Part shown: piece after piece, positions 6,672 through 51,471 of the stretch
How the letters are laid out: the number at the start of each line of letters is the position of its first letter
Numbering within the stretch: position 1 is the first letter of the stretch
Assembly (NCBI GenBank): GCA_014379625.1
Contig: JACMLJ010000065.1
Location: forward strand, 1 to 64,000
Source: Ferruginibacter sp.
GTDB taxonomy: Bacteria > Bacteroidota > Bacteroidia > Chitinophagales > Chitinophagaceae
Direction of reading: 5' to 3'
Length of the DNA: 64,000 nucleotides
Notes under the pieces: generated by a model
Database searches by the model: none
The model's input: only the letters and a program-made list of their open reading frames with translations
Told to the model about the DNA's origin: nothing
Translations under genes and position numbers: made by a program

Positions 6672-7215
6672 GCCAGGTCTGATTTTTTGAAAAGATAAAT
6701 AAATTTAAGCAATAGAGGAGTTTGGCTTCAATATAAAACACCACAATTAATTGAAATAATATCACTTAATTCAAAATCGTTATTGCAATGTGCATTTCAA
6801 TTAACGCTACCGTTTGATGCAAATGGACGGTGGATAAACCGCACATGACTCCCAGTCGTGGCTGGTGTTCCAACCAGTCAGGGACAAAGGCATCAATAAA
6901 ACCTGTTTTTGCTTATTCTATCGTTTTATCCTGGAATGCACCTGCAAAGCCAATTACAGGAACCTTTTAATTGCCACGGTTACAACCCTCAATGCAGATT
7001 GCGGTGCAGTAAATGACCAACCAGCTTTTCATGGTTTTTAATTTTTAATCCGGTCAAATAATCAAATTTGTTTATTGTAAAATACTAAATTAAAAATAGG
7101 GAATATTTTAATTGACAATTGATAATATGCTGGTGGAAAGGTGTGCAATTTTGATAAAAACCAAGTTGTATTTATATTGGTTTTTTTGTACATTAGCCCC
7201 CTAAATCAAAAAATT

Positions 7216-7875
7216 ATGAAAAAAATAATCATTGCCTTCTGTACCGTTTCCTTCCTGCTGGCCTGCAACAGTGAAGACAAATCCGGTGCAAAAACTGAAG
7301 AAGCAAAAATGGATTCAACCACTACGGTTTCAAAAGAAAAGTCTGACGAATGGGTGCCTGTTGATTCTGCCACTGCTATGAAATCGATGATGGAAGCCGG
7401 CACACCGGGTCAGCAACATACTATGCTGGCAAAAAGTGATGGAAAATGGACGGCCGAAACCACCATGTGGATGGCGCCCGGTGCGCCCCCAATGGTGGCC
7501 AAAAGCAGCGCTGTAAATAAAATGGTGCTCGGGGGCCGCTACCAGCAAACAAGCTTCAAAGGGGATTTTATGGGTATGCCTTTTGAAGGCTCCAGCACTA
7601 CCGGCTACGACAATGCTAAAAAAATGTATTTTACTACCTGGATGGATAATATGAGTACGGGTTTGATGAACATGGAAGGCACTTGGGATGAAGCTTCGAA
7701 ATCCATAAATTTTAAAGGCAAAATGCTCTGCCCCGCCAATGGTAAAGAATGTGAAATGAGGGAAGTGTACAAATTTGTGGATGATAATACGCAGGTGATG
7801 GAAATGTACGGCCCGGATATGAAAACCGGGAAAGAATACAAAAGCATGGAAATAAAATTTGTAAAAAGTAAATAA
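7216..7875 (+). CDS. DUF1579-like lipoprotein
   Basis: Likely start at the internal ATG 7216 (MKKIIIAFCTVSFLLACNSEDK, lipobox LLAC); GGRYQQTSFKGDFMGMPFEGSSTTGYDNAKKMYFTTWMDNMSTG is DUF1579-like. Confidence 0.85.
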   Translation: MKKIIIAFCTVSFLLACNSEDKSGAKTEEAKMDSTTTVSKEKSDEWVPVDSATAMKSMMEAGTPGQQHTMLAKSDGKWTAETTMWMAPGAPPMVAKSSAVNKMVLGGRYQQTSFKGDFMGMPFEGSSTTGYDNAKKMYFTTWMDNMSTGLMNMEGTWDEASKSINFKGKMLCPANGKECEMREVYKFVDDNTQVMEMYGPDMKTGKEYKSMEIKFVKSK

Positions 7876-9598: not shown

Positions 9599-9841
9599 AT
9601 GTTGAAAATGCCTGTTACATACACAAAGAACTCAACTGTTGGAGCGCAACAGAATTACAAGAAATTTCAGGCTACACAAATGGACGACTTTATCAGTGTA
9701 ATTGAGAAAGCAAAAAAGACTTGCGAAAACGCAGGGGAGACAATATCCAATCATTTTGCCGACATGAGCAAAATGACAGGTTTAGCTAAAGGTGCTCAAT
9801 GCGAAATTCCTGATATTGCTTTGACGAGGTATGCCTGCTAT
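9599..9841 (+). pseudogene. DinD-like (DNA-damage-inducible protein D) N-terminal remnant
   Basis: ISVIEKAKKTCENAGETISNHFADMSKMTGLAKGAQCEIPDIALTRYACY resembles the conserved DinD N-terminal region and then stops; following sequence is degenerate. Confidence 0.6.
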
Positions 9842-10393
9842 TGATTTGCACAAAATCACCCTTCCGTTCAATACCTGTTTTTTACTAAATAAGCACGTAA
9901 AAGTGGTTTAAGGTCTTTGCCTGCTCAACGACTGTGGAAGACCTACATCTTCTAATAACATTCCTGCACACCATATCAAAGGAAACATAATTCACGGCAC
10001 ACCCGAACCAAACCTGTCTGCCGAATGCAATCAGGGCGAAGGCTTACACAAGTACTGGTGAGAATTAGGCGGAAAACTTTTTGAAATTAACAAAAGCAAC
10101 ATTGGTTTGGTTCTTTTTTTAATCCTATTCCCTGTTCTTGTCAATCCTATTATTTTCAACCCCGCAAAAGATAACGTGTATATCGGTAACACCTTCCAAT
10201 TGATGATCCGGTTTTCTCTGAATACGAAAGCATCCCGGAACTGTACATCCAAATGCGAGAACGCAGGGTCGTGGTTATTAATGGCACTACTTTGTAAATA
10301 CGGTTACAGCCACCCTGCTTAAGGCCGGTTCAACAATCTAATAAACGGTACAAAAAATTACTTACTTTTATTGTCTATTAAAATCAATCAATC

Positions 10394-29925: not shown

Positions 29926-30162
29926 CCTTCGACTGTATCGACCTTCGGCTTCGCTCAGGGCGATCAGGCGATATCCCCCGGCTATAGCGCCCTTCGGCTT
30001 CGCTCAGGACGATCGGGCAACATCCTTCGACTCCGCTCAGGACTACATAATTCATCCTTCGGCTGTATCGCCCTTCGACTGCGCTCAGGACTGCATAACT
30101 CATCCTTTGGATTCGCTCAGGACGATCAGGTAACATCCTTCGACTTCGCTCAGGACAGTCCT
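29926..30162. repeat. Imperfect tandem array, about 33-bp period, of CCTTCGRCTNCGCTCAGGAC units
   Basis: Repeated ccttcggcttcgctcagggcgatcaggcgatat / ccttcggcttcgctcaggacgatcgggcaacat / ccttcgactccgctcaggactacataattcat / ... ccttcgacttcgctcaggacagtc. Confidence 0.9.
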
Positions 30163-33648: not shown

Positions 33649-34347
33649 CTATTGCCCGTAATAACTATCCGGCCCATGTTTGCGTTCAAAATGCTTTTTG
33701 ATGAGTGAATCCTGCAGCCTGGGTGCATTGGGATTGATCTGTTCGGTTAATAATGCCATTTGCGCGATACATTCCAGTACGGCACTGTTGTACACCGCTT
33801 TCTCCGGGGTTTTGCCCCAGGTGAACGGCGCATGATTACCTACCAGTATCATTTCTATTTCTTCATAACCGAGGTTCTTCTCTTTCAGTGCATGCATTAT
33901 CTGGAAACCGGTTTCATATTCATAATTACCCTGTATCATTTCATCACTCATTGGTGGCGCGCAGGGGATATCCACCGTATTATGATCGGCATGTGTAGTT
34001 CCAAAAATAGGTATGGAACGATGGCTCTGCGCCCATGCGGTAGCGTAAGTAGAGTGGGTATGCACGATGCCCCCGATCTTTTCCCAATGCTTGTACAATA
34101 CAGCATGGGTAAGCGTATCAGAGGAAGGCCGGAGCGTACCTTCAACAATTTTTCCATCAAAGTCAACAATCACCATTTTTGCCGGTGATAAATCTTCATA
34201 AGGAACCCCACTTGGTTTAATGGCAAATACACCCGCAGTTCTGTCTGCCGCGCTCACATTTCCAAATGTAAATAACACCAAACCTAATTTGGGTAATTGC
34301 ATATTGGCATCATAAGCCGATTGTTGTATTTCATCGTATTTACTCAT
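33649..34347 (-). CDS. araD: L-ribulose-5-phosphate 4-epimerase
   Basis: 232 aa; LPKLGLVLFTFGNVSAADRTAGVFAIKPSGVPYEDLSPAKMVIVD...GGIVHTHSTYATAWAQSHRSIPIFGTTHADHN. Confidence 0.97.
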   Translation of the reverse strand: MSKYDEIQQSAYDANMQLPKLGLVLFTFGNVSAADRTAGVFAIKPSGVPYEDLSPAKMVIVDFDGKIVEGTLRPSSDTLTHAVLYKHWEKIGGIVHTHSTYATAWAQSHRSIPIFGTTHADHNTVDIPCAPPMSDEMIQGNYEYETGFQIMHALKEKNLGYEEIEMILVGNHAPFTWGKTPEKAVYNSAVLECIAQMALLTEQINPNAPRLQDSLIKKHFERKHGPDSYYGQ

Positions 34348-34349
34348 AT

Positions 34350-34475
34350 AAGTTGATCGTTGATGGTTGTTTGTTGATCGTTGTTCGTTGATGGTTGATC
34401 GTTGATGGTTGTTTGTTGATCGTTGTTCGTTGATGGTTGATCGTTGTTTGTTGTTTGTTGTTGGTTGTTGGTTCT
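34350..34475. repeat. Low-complexity tandem repeat (GTTGATSGTTGWTYGTTGTT...)
   Basis: gttgatcgttgatggttgtttgttgatcgttgttcgttgatggttgatcgttgatggttgtttgttgatcg... between araB and araD. Confidence 0.9.
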
Positions 34476-34540
34476 AAGTAAGTAACCGGCGATTTATATA
34501 TTATTCCATTACCTATTGCCCATTGCCCATTCACCATTGC

Positions 34541-42682: not shown

Positions 42683-43524
42683 TGTCTGTTATTTTTAATG
42701 ATCCCTGCCTGTAATGCGCATCATTTGTAATTGGTTTGCTGCAAAAAATTTGAACAAGCTGGTTTGTCTTGCTGATCCCCAGTTATTGCTATTTAAAAAT
42801 AGCATCCGAATTACCCGCTTTCCCGCCTCCGCCCGGCACATAATATTTTTTCACCCGTCTGCAACCGGTTGCTTGCGGGGATTTATTCAACCCTTCCGCT
42901 GAGGTAACATTCAGATATCAAAAACTATCATCTTCAAACTTAGTGAATAATCGGTATCGTTCAAAAATTCACTCATTAAAGTCCCTGCATTCATTTTTGA
43001 TAATAAAAATATATATATTACTACTATGCCGTGACAGCGGCTTACCCCTGAGAAGAAATGCGGATCTTCATTTTACCGGCCGATCATTCTTTCGTATGCT
43101 TTTATCCTGCTCAATGGACAAAACAGAGAACGATTTAGCTCGAAAAGGTTACTAATTTACCCCTTGCGGAGTATAGGTGATTTTATTCTTGTATGTTTTA
43201 CAAAATTATACCTGGTGCTATCTTAATCGCAGTGGGGCACCAGGGCGAAAAGATGACAACAAGTTCTCAGTTTTTTGATACGGTATCACCTTCTGGCATT
43301 GAGCCATTTTCAAATTTTCAAATTTTCTCATTTTCACATTTGAAATTCAGGCTTTTCCTTTAGATTAATTTGGCACCTTATACCTCAAATAGATAGTTTT
43401 TTACAAGAATTGCAAGAAACTCCGTTCGGTTACATTATTAAACCTGCCATACACATAATCATCCTTGCAGAATGGGGGACCTTTTTGTATTTTAACATCC
43501 TTATTTCACAAAAAATTGCTTGTT

Positions 43525-47649: not shown

Positions 47650-47679
47650 TATACAATTCCTTTATGGTGCAATTAAAAG
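47650..47679. CRISPR. Solo CRISPR-like repeat (degenerate 5' end)
   Basis: tatacaattcctttatggtgcaattaaaag, 26/30 match to the repeat at 48667..48696. Confidence 0.45.
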
Positions 47680-47739
47680 CGGGATTAAAAACTGAGGGTG
47701 GTCTTAGCATGATTCCGGCAGCTTTACCCCAGTGTATGA

Positions 47740-48258
47740 TTATCTTGATATAAAATATTTTTCAAATTCTTCCAGTTCTTTAAGTTCTGTTTCAACATAT
47801 TTTTTGAAAAGTTTCTCCCCTACCTGTGACAGCAAGGCCGAAATACCAACATCTATCAAACGGATACCATTATTAGTGAGCAGGATATTATCGAAAGGCT
47901 GCCCGGTAATATCCGAAGGTCTCCTGATGTCCCTGTGTACAAATCCCGCCTGGTGCAATTGATGCATTTCATCCAAAAAAACGGCTAACCATAGTTCTCT
48001 TTTTTCTGTCTCATAAGCCCGGTAATCAATAGGATAAATACGCTCCATTACCAGCATTTCGGCTTGCAGGTTGTCATCATAATCAAGCCGAAAAAATTTA
48101 CACACCAGCCCGTTTAAGTTGTTGGCATATTTCATTTTTTCGGCCTCGGACCCAATGTCAGACCTCGTATCGCCGGTAAACAGTTTTGCAACTGTATCTT
48201 CTGTAAGGGCAATCACTTTATTGTTGGCGCCGGTAGAAAGCAGGCGGGGATATTTCAT
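47740..48258 (-). CDS. Compact protein-kinase-like protein
   Basis: 172 aa; GANNKVIALTEDTVAKLF, MERIYPIDYRAY, MHQLHQAGFVHRDIRRPSDITGQPFDNILLTNNGIRLIDVGIS. Confidence 0.65.
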   Translation of the reverse strand: MKYPRLLSTGANNKVIALTEDTVAKLFTGDTRSDIGSEAEKMKYANNLNGLVCKFFRLDYDDNLQAEMLVMERIYPIDYRAYETEKRELWLAVFLDEMHQLHQAGFVHRDIRRPSDITGQPFDNILLTNNGIRLIDVGISALLSQVGEKLFKKYVETELKELEEFEKYFISR

Positions 48259-48306
48259 TTGGTTGTTTTTTTATGATTATTTCAGTTTGCCGGAATGAAC
48301 TCAAAT

Positions 48307-48329
48307 CCTATGGGTTAGAAACCCATAGG
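48307..48329. repeat. Perfect inverted repeat (10-bp arms, 3-nt loop)
   Basis: CCTATGGGTT-aga-AACCCATAGG. Confidence 0.9.
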
Positions 48330-48602
48330 TAGAAGACAGAGGTTAAACCCATTCGAATATAATCACTGGTTTCCGCAACGATTTAATTTAGCTAATTCGG
48401 CCCTACCCAATAACTGGCGGCGTTCAACCCAGGCATACAACAACAAAACCATCATTTCTTTTTTTGATTGCGGTAAAACCTTGAATATTGTCCACCATCT
48501 AATTTTTTATAGAGCTACCAAACATAAAAAATACTTCTACCAAAAAACAGAGGGGTTGTTGTTTCAATCTTTCTTTTTATGCGCCGTGGCCAGTTTTCAA
48601 CT

Positions 48603-48696
48603 ATTTCAATTCCTTTATGGTGGAATTAAAAGTATAAAAGATTCAGTTAATGGCAATTTAATTCTGGTTTCAATTCCTTTATGGTGCGATTAAAAG
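48603..48696. CRISPR. Minimal CRISPR-like array: two 30-nt repeats separated by a 34-nt spacer-like sequence
   Basis: atttcaattcctttatggtggaattaaaag (48603..48632), tataaaagattcagttaatggcaatttaattctg (48633..48666), gtttcaattcctttatggtgcgattaaaag (48667..48696); 27/30 repeat identity. Confidence 0.6.
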
Positions 48697-49224: not shown

Positions 49225-51471
49225 ATGAACTATCAACCTTCCAACGGGCATACCGATGCGCTTACGGAGCCTAATTCCACCTCTTCCGTGGTATTCCCCG
49301 TTATTAAAAAATCAAAAAAATATGTTCCCGACAAAGATGAACAAAATGACAACCTCGCCAATGATTATTACGCATCCAATGAGCAGGATGAAATGATTGA
49401 ACTGGACTCAACGGTCGGCACCGACGAAAGCATTCCCGCCCAGGCTGTTCCATTTCCGCCACTCGCCGCCATCAGTAAAAATAAAGTGTATGGCCGTTAC
49501 AAGGGTCAACTGGGTAATTTTGAACTGGAGCTCCGGGTGGATATTGATGGTAATATGCCCCTCCAAAAAATAAGCGGCGACTACTATGTTATTTCCGGGC
49601 AAACCAAATCTTATTTCGGATCTTTTTCTGTAGGCAGTATCACCACCAGCATATTGAACAACGTAATAACCATCACCGGTACCGCCACCACCACATGGGC
49701 CACTTCCTTTAATAAGCTTAAAATCGTGATCAGGCAAACCCTGGTTTTGCAACCCCTGGCGCCGGCATTGTTGCAATGGTTCCATATTACCACCAATGCT
49801 CCCGGGGCCCTGTATGTTTGTAATAATTTTAGCAGGGCGTTCCGAACCGTTCGCCTTGAACAGGACCGCACTTCGGGGGTTATCCCCTTCGTTTCTTACA
49901 ACACCGGTGCGCTTCCATCGGGAGGACCTGCAAGGCTGCTTACCATTAATTCGGCCTATGGTGAAGCCGGCGTGGAAATGATCAATGCGGGCATTAGCAG
50001 CGTGGTACCCATGGCCCTTGCCGGCGTAGACGCAAAATGGACCAATGCTGAACTGCATGCCGCAATGGTGAACCACTTTAGCCTGTACCAAAACGCACCC
50101 GCCTGGGATGTGTGGTTACTACATGCCTATGAACACATTTCACCCGGCGTATTGGGTATTATGTTTGACCAGCTCGGGCTTCAGCGGCAGGGTTGCGCCG
50201 TATTTTACAAAGGACTGGGGGGCGCTTCCGCCGAACAGCAAAGATTGCAGGTATATGCCTGCGTACATGAGCTGGGCCACTGCTTCAACCTGTTGCATTC
50301 ATGGCAAAAAAGCCTTGCCACCCCGCCTAAACCAAATATTCCCAGTTCCCTGTCATGGATGAATTATCCGTGGAATTACCCTGCCGGACCGGTGGCTTTC
50401 TGGAACCATTTCCCCTTCCGGTTTGATCCGGTGGAACTGACCCATATCCGTCACGGGTTCAGAAATAATGTGATCATGGGTGGAAATCCATTTACAGTGG
50501 GTTCATCTTTACAGGATATTGGTGGGTTATTTGAAGATAACATTGAAAACACTGCCAATTTGGAATTGGAACTGGAAGCTAAAAAAACCTACTTACTGGG
50601 TGAACCCGTAGTGCTGGAAACAAAACTAAAAACAACCACTACCAAAAACAAACGGGTCATCAGTAACTTGCACGTTAATTATGGTTTTATAACAATTGGC
50701 ATTAAAAAACCTAGTGGCGAAATACTCGAATATGAACCCATCGCGGAAATTTGTATTGAACCAGAATACACCATTTTAAATAAAGACAATCCCGGTGTTT
50801 ACGAAAGTTCATATATAGGTTTTGGCAAACAGGGCTTTATTTTCGACCAACTGGGCACCTACCAGATCCGTGCGGTTTTTTATCACGAAGATGGCTCCAG
50901 GATTGTATCTGATACCTTGAAATTAAGGGTTAAATACCCCGTGGGCAAACAGGATGATGAAATAGCTGACCTGTTGCTGAATGAAGAAGTGGGCTATTTA
51001 CTTGCCTTTATGGGATCAGACGCACCCTACCTTCAAAAAGGCAATGATGCATTGAACCTGCTGGCGGAAAAATATAAAGATCATCCATTAGCTGTTTACG
51101 CGCAATTTATAAAAGGCGTAAACGAACAGCGTACCTTCAAAACCATCACCCCCGAAAAAAACCTGGAGGTAAGGCCACCAAATTTTGCGGGCGGGGAAGC
51201 ATTGTTGAATGAAGTGATCGATAAATCAAAAGCAGGGAAAGGTTTGGATAATATTAGTTTGAACCAAACCATGCAAATTCTTGCCAAGGCTTATCAACGG
51301 GAAGGAAATATGGAAGCTGCAGAGAATACTGTAAAAAATATAGTGTCGCATTTCAACAAGCAGCCTATAAAACCCGAAGTAAAAGAAATGATAGCGAGAG
51401 ATGCCGCCACCATTTTGGCGCCGGAAAAAAAGGATAAACAAAATGGTGAGGATATGGTTAATGAGGGTTAA
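49225..51471 (+). CDS. Metzincin-like zinc metallopeptidase-domain protein
   Basis: 748 aa; zinc motif VHELGHCFNLLHSW (HExxHxxNxxH) followed by candidate Met-turn PSSLSWMNYPW; long C-terminal region; no obvious signal peptide. Confidence 0.7.
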   Translation: MNYQPSNGHTDALTEPNSTSSVVFPVIKKSKKYVPDKDEQNDNLANDYYASNEQDEMIELDSTVGTDESIPAQAVPFPPLAAISKNKVYGRYKGQLGNFELELRVDIDGNMPLQKISGDYYVISGQTKSYFGSFSVGSITTSILNNVITITGTATTTWATSFNKLKIVIRQTLVLQPLAPALLQWFHITTNAPGALYVCNNFSRAFRTVRLEQDRTSGVIPFVSYNTGALPSGGPARLLTINSAYGEAGVEMINAGISSVVPMALAGVDAKWTNAELHAAMVNHFSLYQNAPAWDVWLLHAYEHISPGVLGIMFDQLGLQRQGCAVFYKGLGGASAEQQRLQVYACVHELGHCFNLLHSWQKSLATPPKPNIPSSLSWMNYPWNYPAGPVAFWNHFPFRFDPVELTHIRHGFRNNVIMGGNPFTVGSSLQDIGGLFEDNIENTANLELELEAKKTYLLGEPVVLETKLKTTTTKNKRVISNLHVNYGFITIGIKKPSGEILEYEPIAEICIEPEYTILNKDNPGVYESSYIGFGKQGFIFDQLGTYQIRAVFYHEDGSRIVSDTLKLRVKYPVGKQDDEIADLLLNEEVGYLLAFMGSDAPYLQKGNDALNLLAEKYKDHPLAVYAQFIKGVNEQRTFKTITPEKNLEVRPPNFAGGEALLNEVIDKSKAGKGLDNISLNQTMQILAKAYQREGNMEAAENTVKNIVSHFNKQPIKPEVKEMIARDAATILAPEKKDKQNGEDMVNEG

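Follow-up and report, generated by a model that had tools for sequence, protein, structure and literature searches.

Orphan type I-B CRISPR repeats around a kinase-like gene in a Ferruginibacter genome

Three CRISPR-like repeats surround a kinase-like gene in the 64,000-nucleotide stretch of Ferruginibacter sp. DNA analyzed here (contig JACMLJ010000065.1, positions 1 to 64,000; hereafter the window). Two of them form a doublet. The leader-side copy, R1 (48667-48696, minus strand, 30 nt), reads GTTTCAATTCCTTTATGGTGCGATTAAAAG, or CTTTTAATCGCACCATAAAGGAATTGAAAC in the crRNA sense, and is the consensus copy, an exact match with an intact handle. It is followed on the same strand by a 34-nt spacer (48633-48666) and by the degenerate copy R2 (48603-48632, minus strand, 27 of 30 positions identical, three mismatches), giving at least two repeats at an array period, here 64 nt. 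The solo repeat R3 (47650-47679, minus strand) matches at 26 of 30 positions (four mismatches), and its handle end is degraded (ATTGTATA). All three copies share an identical 24-base core, CAATTCCTTTATGGTGNNATTAAAAG. Between R2 and R3 lies the kinase-like gene (47740-48258, minus strand, 172 aa), whose start is about 345 nt downstream of the doublet and whose stop is about 60 nt short of R3. A sequence-only reading of the window had described this arrangement, and the doublet, the 34-nt gap and the third copy at 47650 are exactly where it had placed them, flanking the open reading frame on both sides as it had said.

Dinucleotide shuffles of the window yielded no matches of this quality. A search of the window that allowed nine mismatches gave no fourth copy. 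Around the three copies there was no additional degenerate repeat above the level seen in shuffles, and the rest of the 5.65-Mb assembly had no further copy at up to three mismatches in the core. The shuffles, together with the arrays in relatives described below, rule out a chance origin of the repeats; the same arrays and the lack of other genomic copies rule out an ordinary dispersed repeat family. No contig edge truncates an array here, since the repeats lie in the interior of a 249-kb contig. R1, R2 and R3 differ from one another at several positions, whereas intact arrays are almost uniform, and the changes in R2 relative to R1 turn a weak repeat stem into a 10-bp hairpin (-9.0 versus -2.3 kcal/mol). 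Unrelated features of the window include an Rfam group II intron D1D4-2 match on the minus strand at 9833-9950 (37.9 bits) and tandem and dispersed repeats of the CCTTCGGCTTCGCTCAGG and GTTGATCGTTGTT types at 29942-30156 and 34338-34487.

The same repeat occurs in true arrays in related genomes. Of 399 same-family genomes, 12 have the core at up to two mismatches, and a looser pattern, with more positions left free, occurs in 15. Most of these occurrences are regular arrays; those inspected closely have 7 to 272 copies and spacers mostly of 33-39 nt, and 34-nt spacers make up about 5% of all spacers in the relatives' arrays. The largest (L037, G203:C9) packs 272 repeats into 18 kb, with 292 pattern matches genome-wide. 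Outside the family, the R1 core recurs exactly in Bacteroidales MAG contigs (arrays L031 and L032), and the exact repeat is found in a Bacteroidales array. Type I-B cas genes lie near matching repeats at two loci: L036, where the array adjoins cas genes that PADLOC names Cas6b, Cas8b and Cas7b, and L033/L128, in a genome of another genus that we label G065. On the minus strand the window repeat terminates in ATTGAAAC, which type I-B crRNAs usually carry as their handle, and the cas genes and array orientation of G065 agree with this reading direction. Because of the handle and of the arrays with type I-B cas genes in relatives, we identify the window repeats as genuine type I-B CRISPR repeats that run right to left, toward the kinase gene. 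They resemble the Bacteroidota type I-B arrays (repeats ending ATTGAAAC/T) in a 30-nt repeat that is identical or within a few bases, in spacer length and in the handle, and differ in that there are just three copies, of which R2 and R3 are degenerate, and no cas genes that we could find. The sequence-only reading had seen the likeness to Bacteroidota CRISPR repeats, which the arrays in the same family and in Bacteroidales bear out, and the matching arrays that it had left to be sought do exist in relatives.

That reading had also reported no cas genes in the window, and a tblastn search of the window with 11 Cas proteins of relatives agrees. At 94% completeness, the host assembly (5.65 Mb in 99 contigs) may lack a cas operon; within it, searches found no Cas1, no Cas7/DevR and no Cas6b, and the Cas3 search returned only helicase matches, all below the cutoff. 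Between 47566 and 49225, where cas remnants might be expected beside the repeats, there were only background alignments, and the assembly holds no second array with the same repeat. Checked against phages, plasmids and the host genome, as had been suggested, the spacer had no protospacer among 50,697 INPHARED phage records (best E 4), none in IMG/VR by exact 27-mer and none in the plasmids of PLSDB (best E 0.3), and in its own genome it matched only itself.

The gene between the repeats has weak Pfam matches to Pkinase and APH, both below the cut-offs, and no solved structure matched it by sequence. Residues K25 and E38, an HRD-type motif (108-110), DN (123-124) and D-x-G (136-138) are invariant or nearly so in 14 homologs. 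Its upstream region contains a perfect palindrome, CCTATGGGTT-AGA-AACCCATAGG (48307-48329), present once in the window. The neighboring gene at 49225 has relatives in just one other genome of the genus. No copy of the kinase was found on viral contigs or plasmids. A general CRISPR linkage of the kinase family is ruled out by about 37 other loci in the family and order without matching repeats: 17 in the same family, with flanks of up to about 9 kb, have neither cas genes nor an array of the window repeat, and 20 further loci of the order, with 1.5-kb flanks, have no such repeat or merely a match with nine mismatches. Homologs at L070 (G332), L149 (G683) and L079 (G376) carry in-frame stops or truncations, which suggests that the gene is dispensable; intact and broken copies both occur in genomes without CRISPR nearby.

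In G065, an ortholog 70% identical to the window kinase sits inside a type I-B cas operon. The gene order there is cas6, an ORF without a Pfam match at the place of cas5, cas3, cas8b, cas7, a repeat doublet, the kinase, cas4, cas1 and the main array; PADLOC calls Cas7b, Cas8b, Cas3b, Cas4b and Cas1b, and Cas6 is confirmed by Pfam. The doublet and kinase, between cas7 and cas4 (L033 13023-15814), have the same order and orientation as in the window, with a gap of about 75 nt rather than about 345 nt. A third degenerate repeat, at a 66-nt period, reaches almost to the kinase start (0 of 400 shuffles). The kinase is at the trailer side of the mini-array, and between it and cas4 no repeat was detected. 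In the same G065 locus, a PemK/MazF-type toxin gene (7017-7343) lies in the stretch between a solo repeat and the main array (L033 5102-7489). The linkage of kinase and doublet in two genera was noticed post hoc and has no clean P value, though chance is an unlikely explanation for it, and we infer a common origin. A shared ancestral locus is weakened by the kinase tree, in which the window and G065 kinases are not sister and form one clade in only 4% of bootstrap trees, though the two may still share one origin.

Ectopic repeats are an established class (PMC9458426), and they occur elsewhere in the family. G127 has a solo repeat (L102 1500-1529, within L130, G127:C74 at about 77178-77207) flanked by an endolysin gene (PHROGs) and a phage integrase gene; after it comes a second repeat-like sequence that is split. 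The G127 repeat resembles the solitary repeat units from which RNA anti-CRISPRs derive (PMC10651486) and is a candidate RNA anti-CRISPR (Racr). In G385, a solo repeat (L034 7415-7444, G385:C317) overlaps the stop codon of a gene resembling methylmalonyl-CoA mutase and is the single copy found genome-wide, while an array of 47 repeats in the congener G196 shares its core. G211 has an ectopic doublet with one spacer (L108 1500-1594, G211:C48), and on another contig a repeat beside Cas1 and Cas4; G146 has a solo ectopic repeat.

Could the doublet regulate the kinase? In a CreTA/CrePA-like module, a crRNA-like antitoxin guide from the doublet would direct Cascade to the kinase promoter and repress a toxic or defensive kinase, and the window copy would be the same module. 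We consider this unlikely. In its favor, the doublet is upstream of the kinase on the same strand in two genera, the doublet-kinase unit of G065 lies inside a cas operon, and creA genes typically have degenerate ectopic repeats (PMC9458426; PMC8501985). Like CreTA/CrePA (PMC8501985, PMC9458426, PMC12737573), the loci combine a single spacer with one or two ectopic, degenerate repeats beside a small gene, in G065 within a type I-B operon; they differ in that neither seed complementarity nor, in the window genome, Cascade was found, and in that toxicity of the kinase is putative. In CreA guides, spacer nucleotides 1-5 and 7-11 are the ones that base-pair with the toxin promoter (PMC8501985). The window spacer matches the kinase promoter at 8 of 10 seed positions, a score reached by 111 of 200 shuffles. 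In G065, the first spacer (S1) matches at 6 of 10 positions, and the second at 8 of 10 near the kinase start, which 3 of 200 shuffles reached and which, as one of ten tests, is not significant. An 11-nt identity between spacer and promoter in G065 covers crRNA positions 19-29, and its position outside the seed and within the third degenerate repeat rules it out as a CreTA signature. Cascade was found in G065 but not in the window genome, so a repressed toxin would be free there, and since kinase homologs persist without CRISPR nearby (about 37 without such repeats, 17 of which have flanks of up to 9 kb without cas genes), the gene needs no CRISPR repression. The model is thus unsupported for the window and at most possible for G065, and the regulatory-RNA role that had been raised for the window repeats likewise lacks support here, since neither a Cas6 nor a Cascade gene turned up and the spacer has no significant seed match to the kinase promoter.

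The repeats might instead have arrived on a mobile element, as a solitary repeat unit or RNA anti-CRISPR, or by recombination without cas genes. This too seems improbable: other genomes of the family do have ectopic units of one or two repeats, including the G127 copy with its phage endolysin and integrase neighbors, but among the tested neighbors no phage integrase, lysis or structural gene was recognized except a tail-fibre-like similarity in the ORF at 43465, the repeat core is absent from IMG/VR, and viral contigs and plasmids lack the kinase. Viral solitary repeat units and Racr (PMC10651486) likewise consist of a single CRISPR-like repeat outside an array, whereas the window is apparently chromosomal, its genome has no cas genes that we found, and it also has a doublet with a spacer. 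It is very unlikely that the doublet is a working mini-array whose cas genes act in trans from the 6% that the assembly lacks. R1 retains the consensus repeat and handle, and the assembly is incomplete and in 99 contigs, but Cas1, Cas6 and Cas7 are all absent and there is no second array with the window repeat.

We therefore favor, as the probable explanation, a relic: the genome would have lost the cas genes of an ancestral type I-B CRISPR-Cas locus and kept the three repeats. We infer such a loss, and not the entry of a fragment already devoid of cas genes. What survives is a two-repeat, one-spacer array and one solo repeat, with the array read toward the kinase gene as its ATTGAAAC handle indicates. 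The kinase would most likely be a passenger from within or beside the ancestral locus, where G065 still has it. Because neither Cas6 nor Cascade turned up, a transcript of the unit would be neither processed nor loaded, and the doublet is probably inert. The relic reading is consistent with copies that have diverged, with a spacer for which no protospacer was found, with the failure to find Cas1, Cas7 and Cas6b, with arrays in relatives and with the kinase ortholog beside a doublet in the G065 operon. Against it, the 24-base core is perfect in three copies, more than old random decay might leave, and no decayed cas fragment lies beside the repeats. The earlier proposal of a relic array split by insertion stands in part: the repeats are orphan type I-B repeats, as a relic would leave, but a split by insertion of the kinase is not borne out by G065, where the kinase is on the trailer side and no repeat was detected from it to cas4. 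Bacteroides fragilis has truncated type I-B loci and, as a further known case, a short orphan array (PMC5704556). The three-repeat orphan there is likewise short, has no associated cas genes and belongs to the same phylum; the window differs in having the kinase between its copies and in that genome-wide searches for four Cas families found no member of any.

The locus is an orphan type I-B remnant, ordinary in kind, with one lead: the kinase beside doublets in two genera. Taken to be a relic, it is a further example of an orphan CRISPR remnant and illustrates that single repeats can stay readable after the loss of cas genes. In G065-like genomes, a degenerate mini-array in a type I-B operon could conceivably control the 172-aa kinase as a guard or abortive-infection effector, with the window copy having outlived its cas genes, but we rate this scenario as doubtful. 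The linkage of this kinase family to doublets in two genera is a specific, testable lead, and if the kinase proved to be crRNA-controlled in G065, the relative with Cascade, it would represent a new protein class among CRISPR-guarded effectors.
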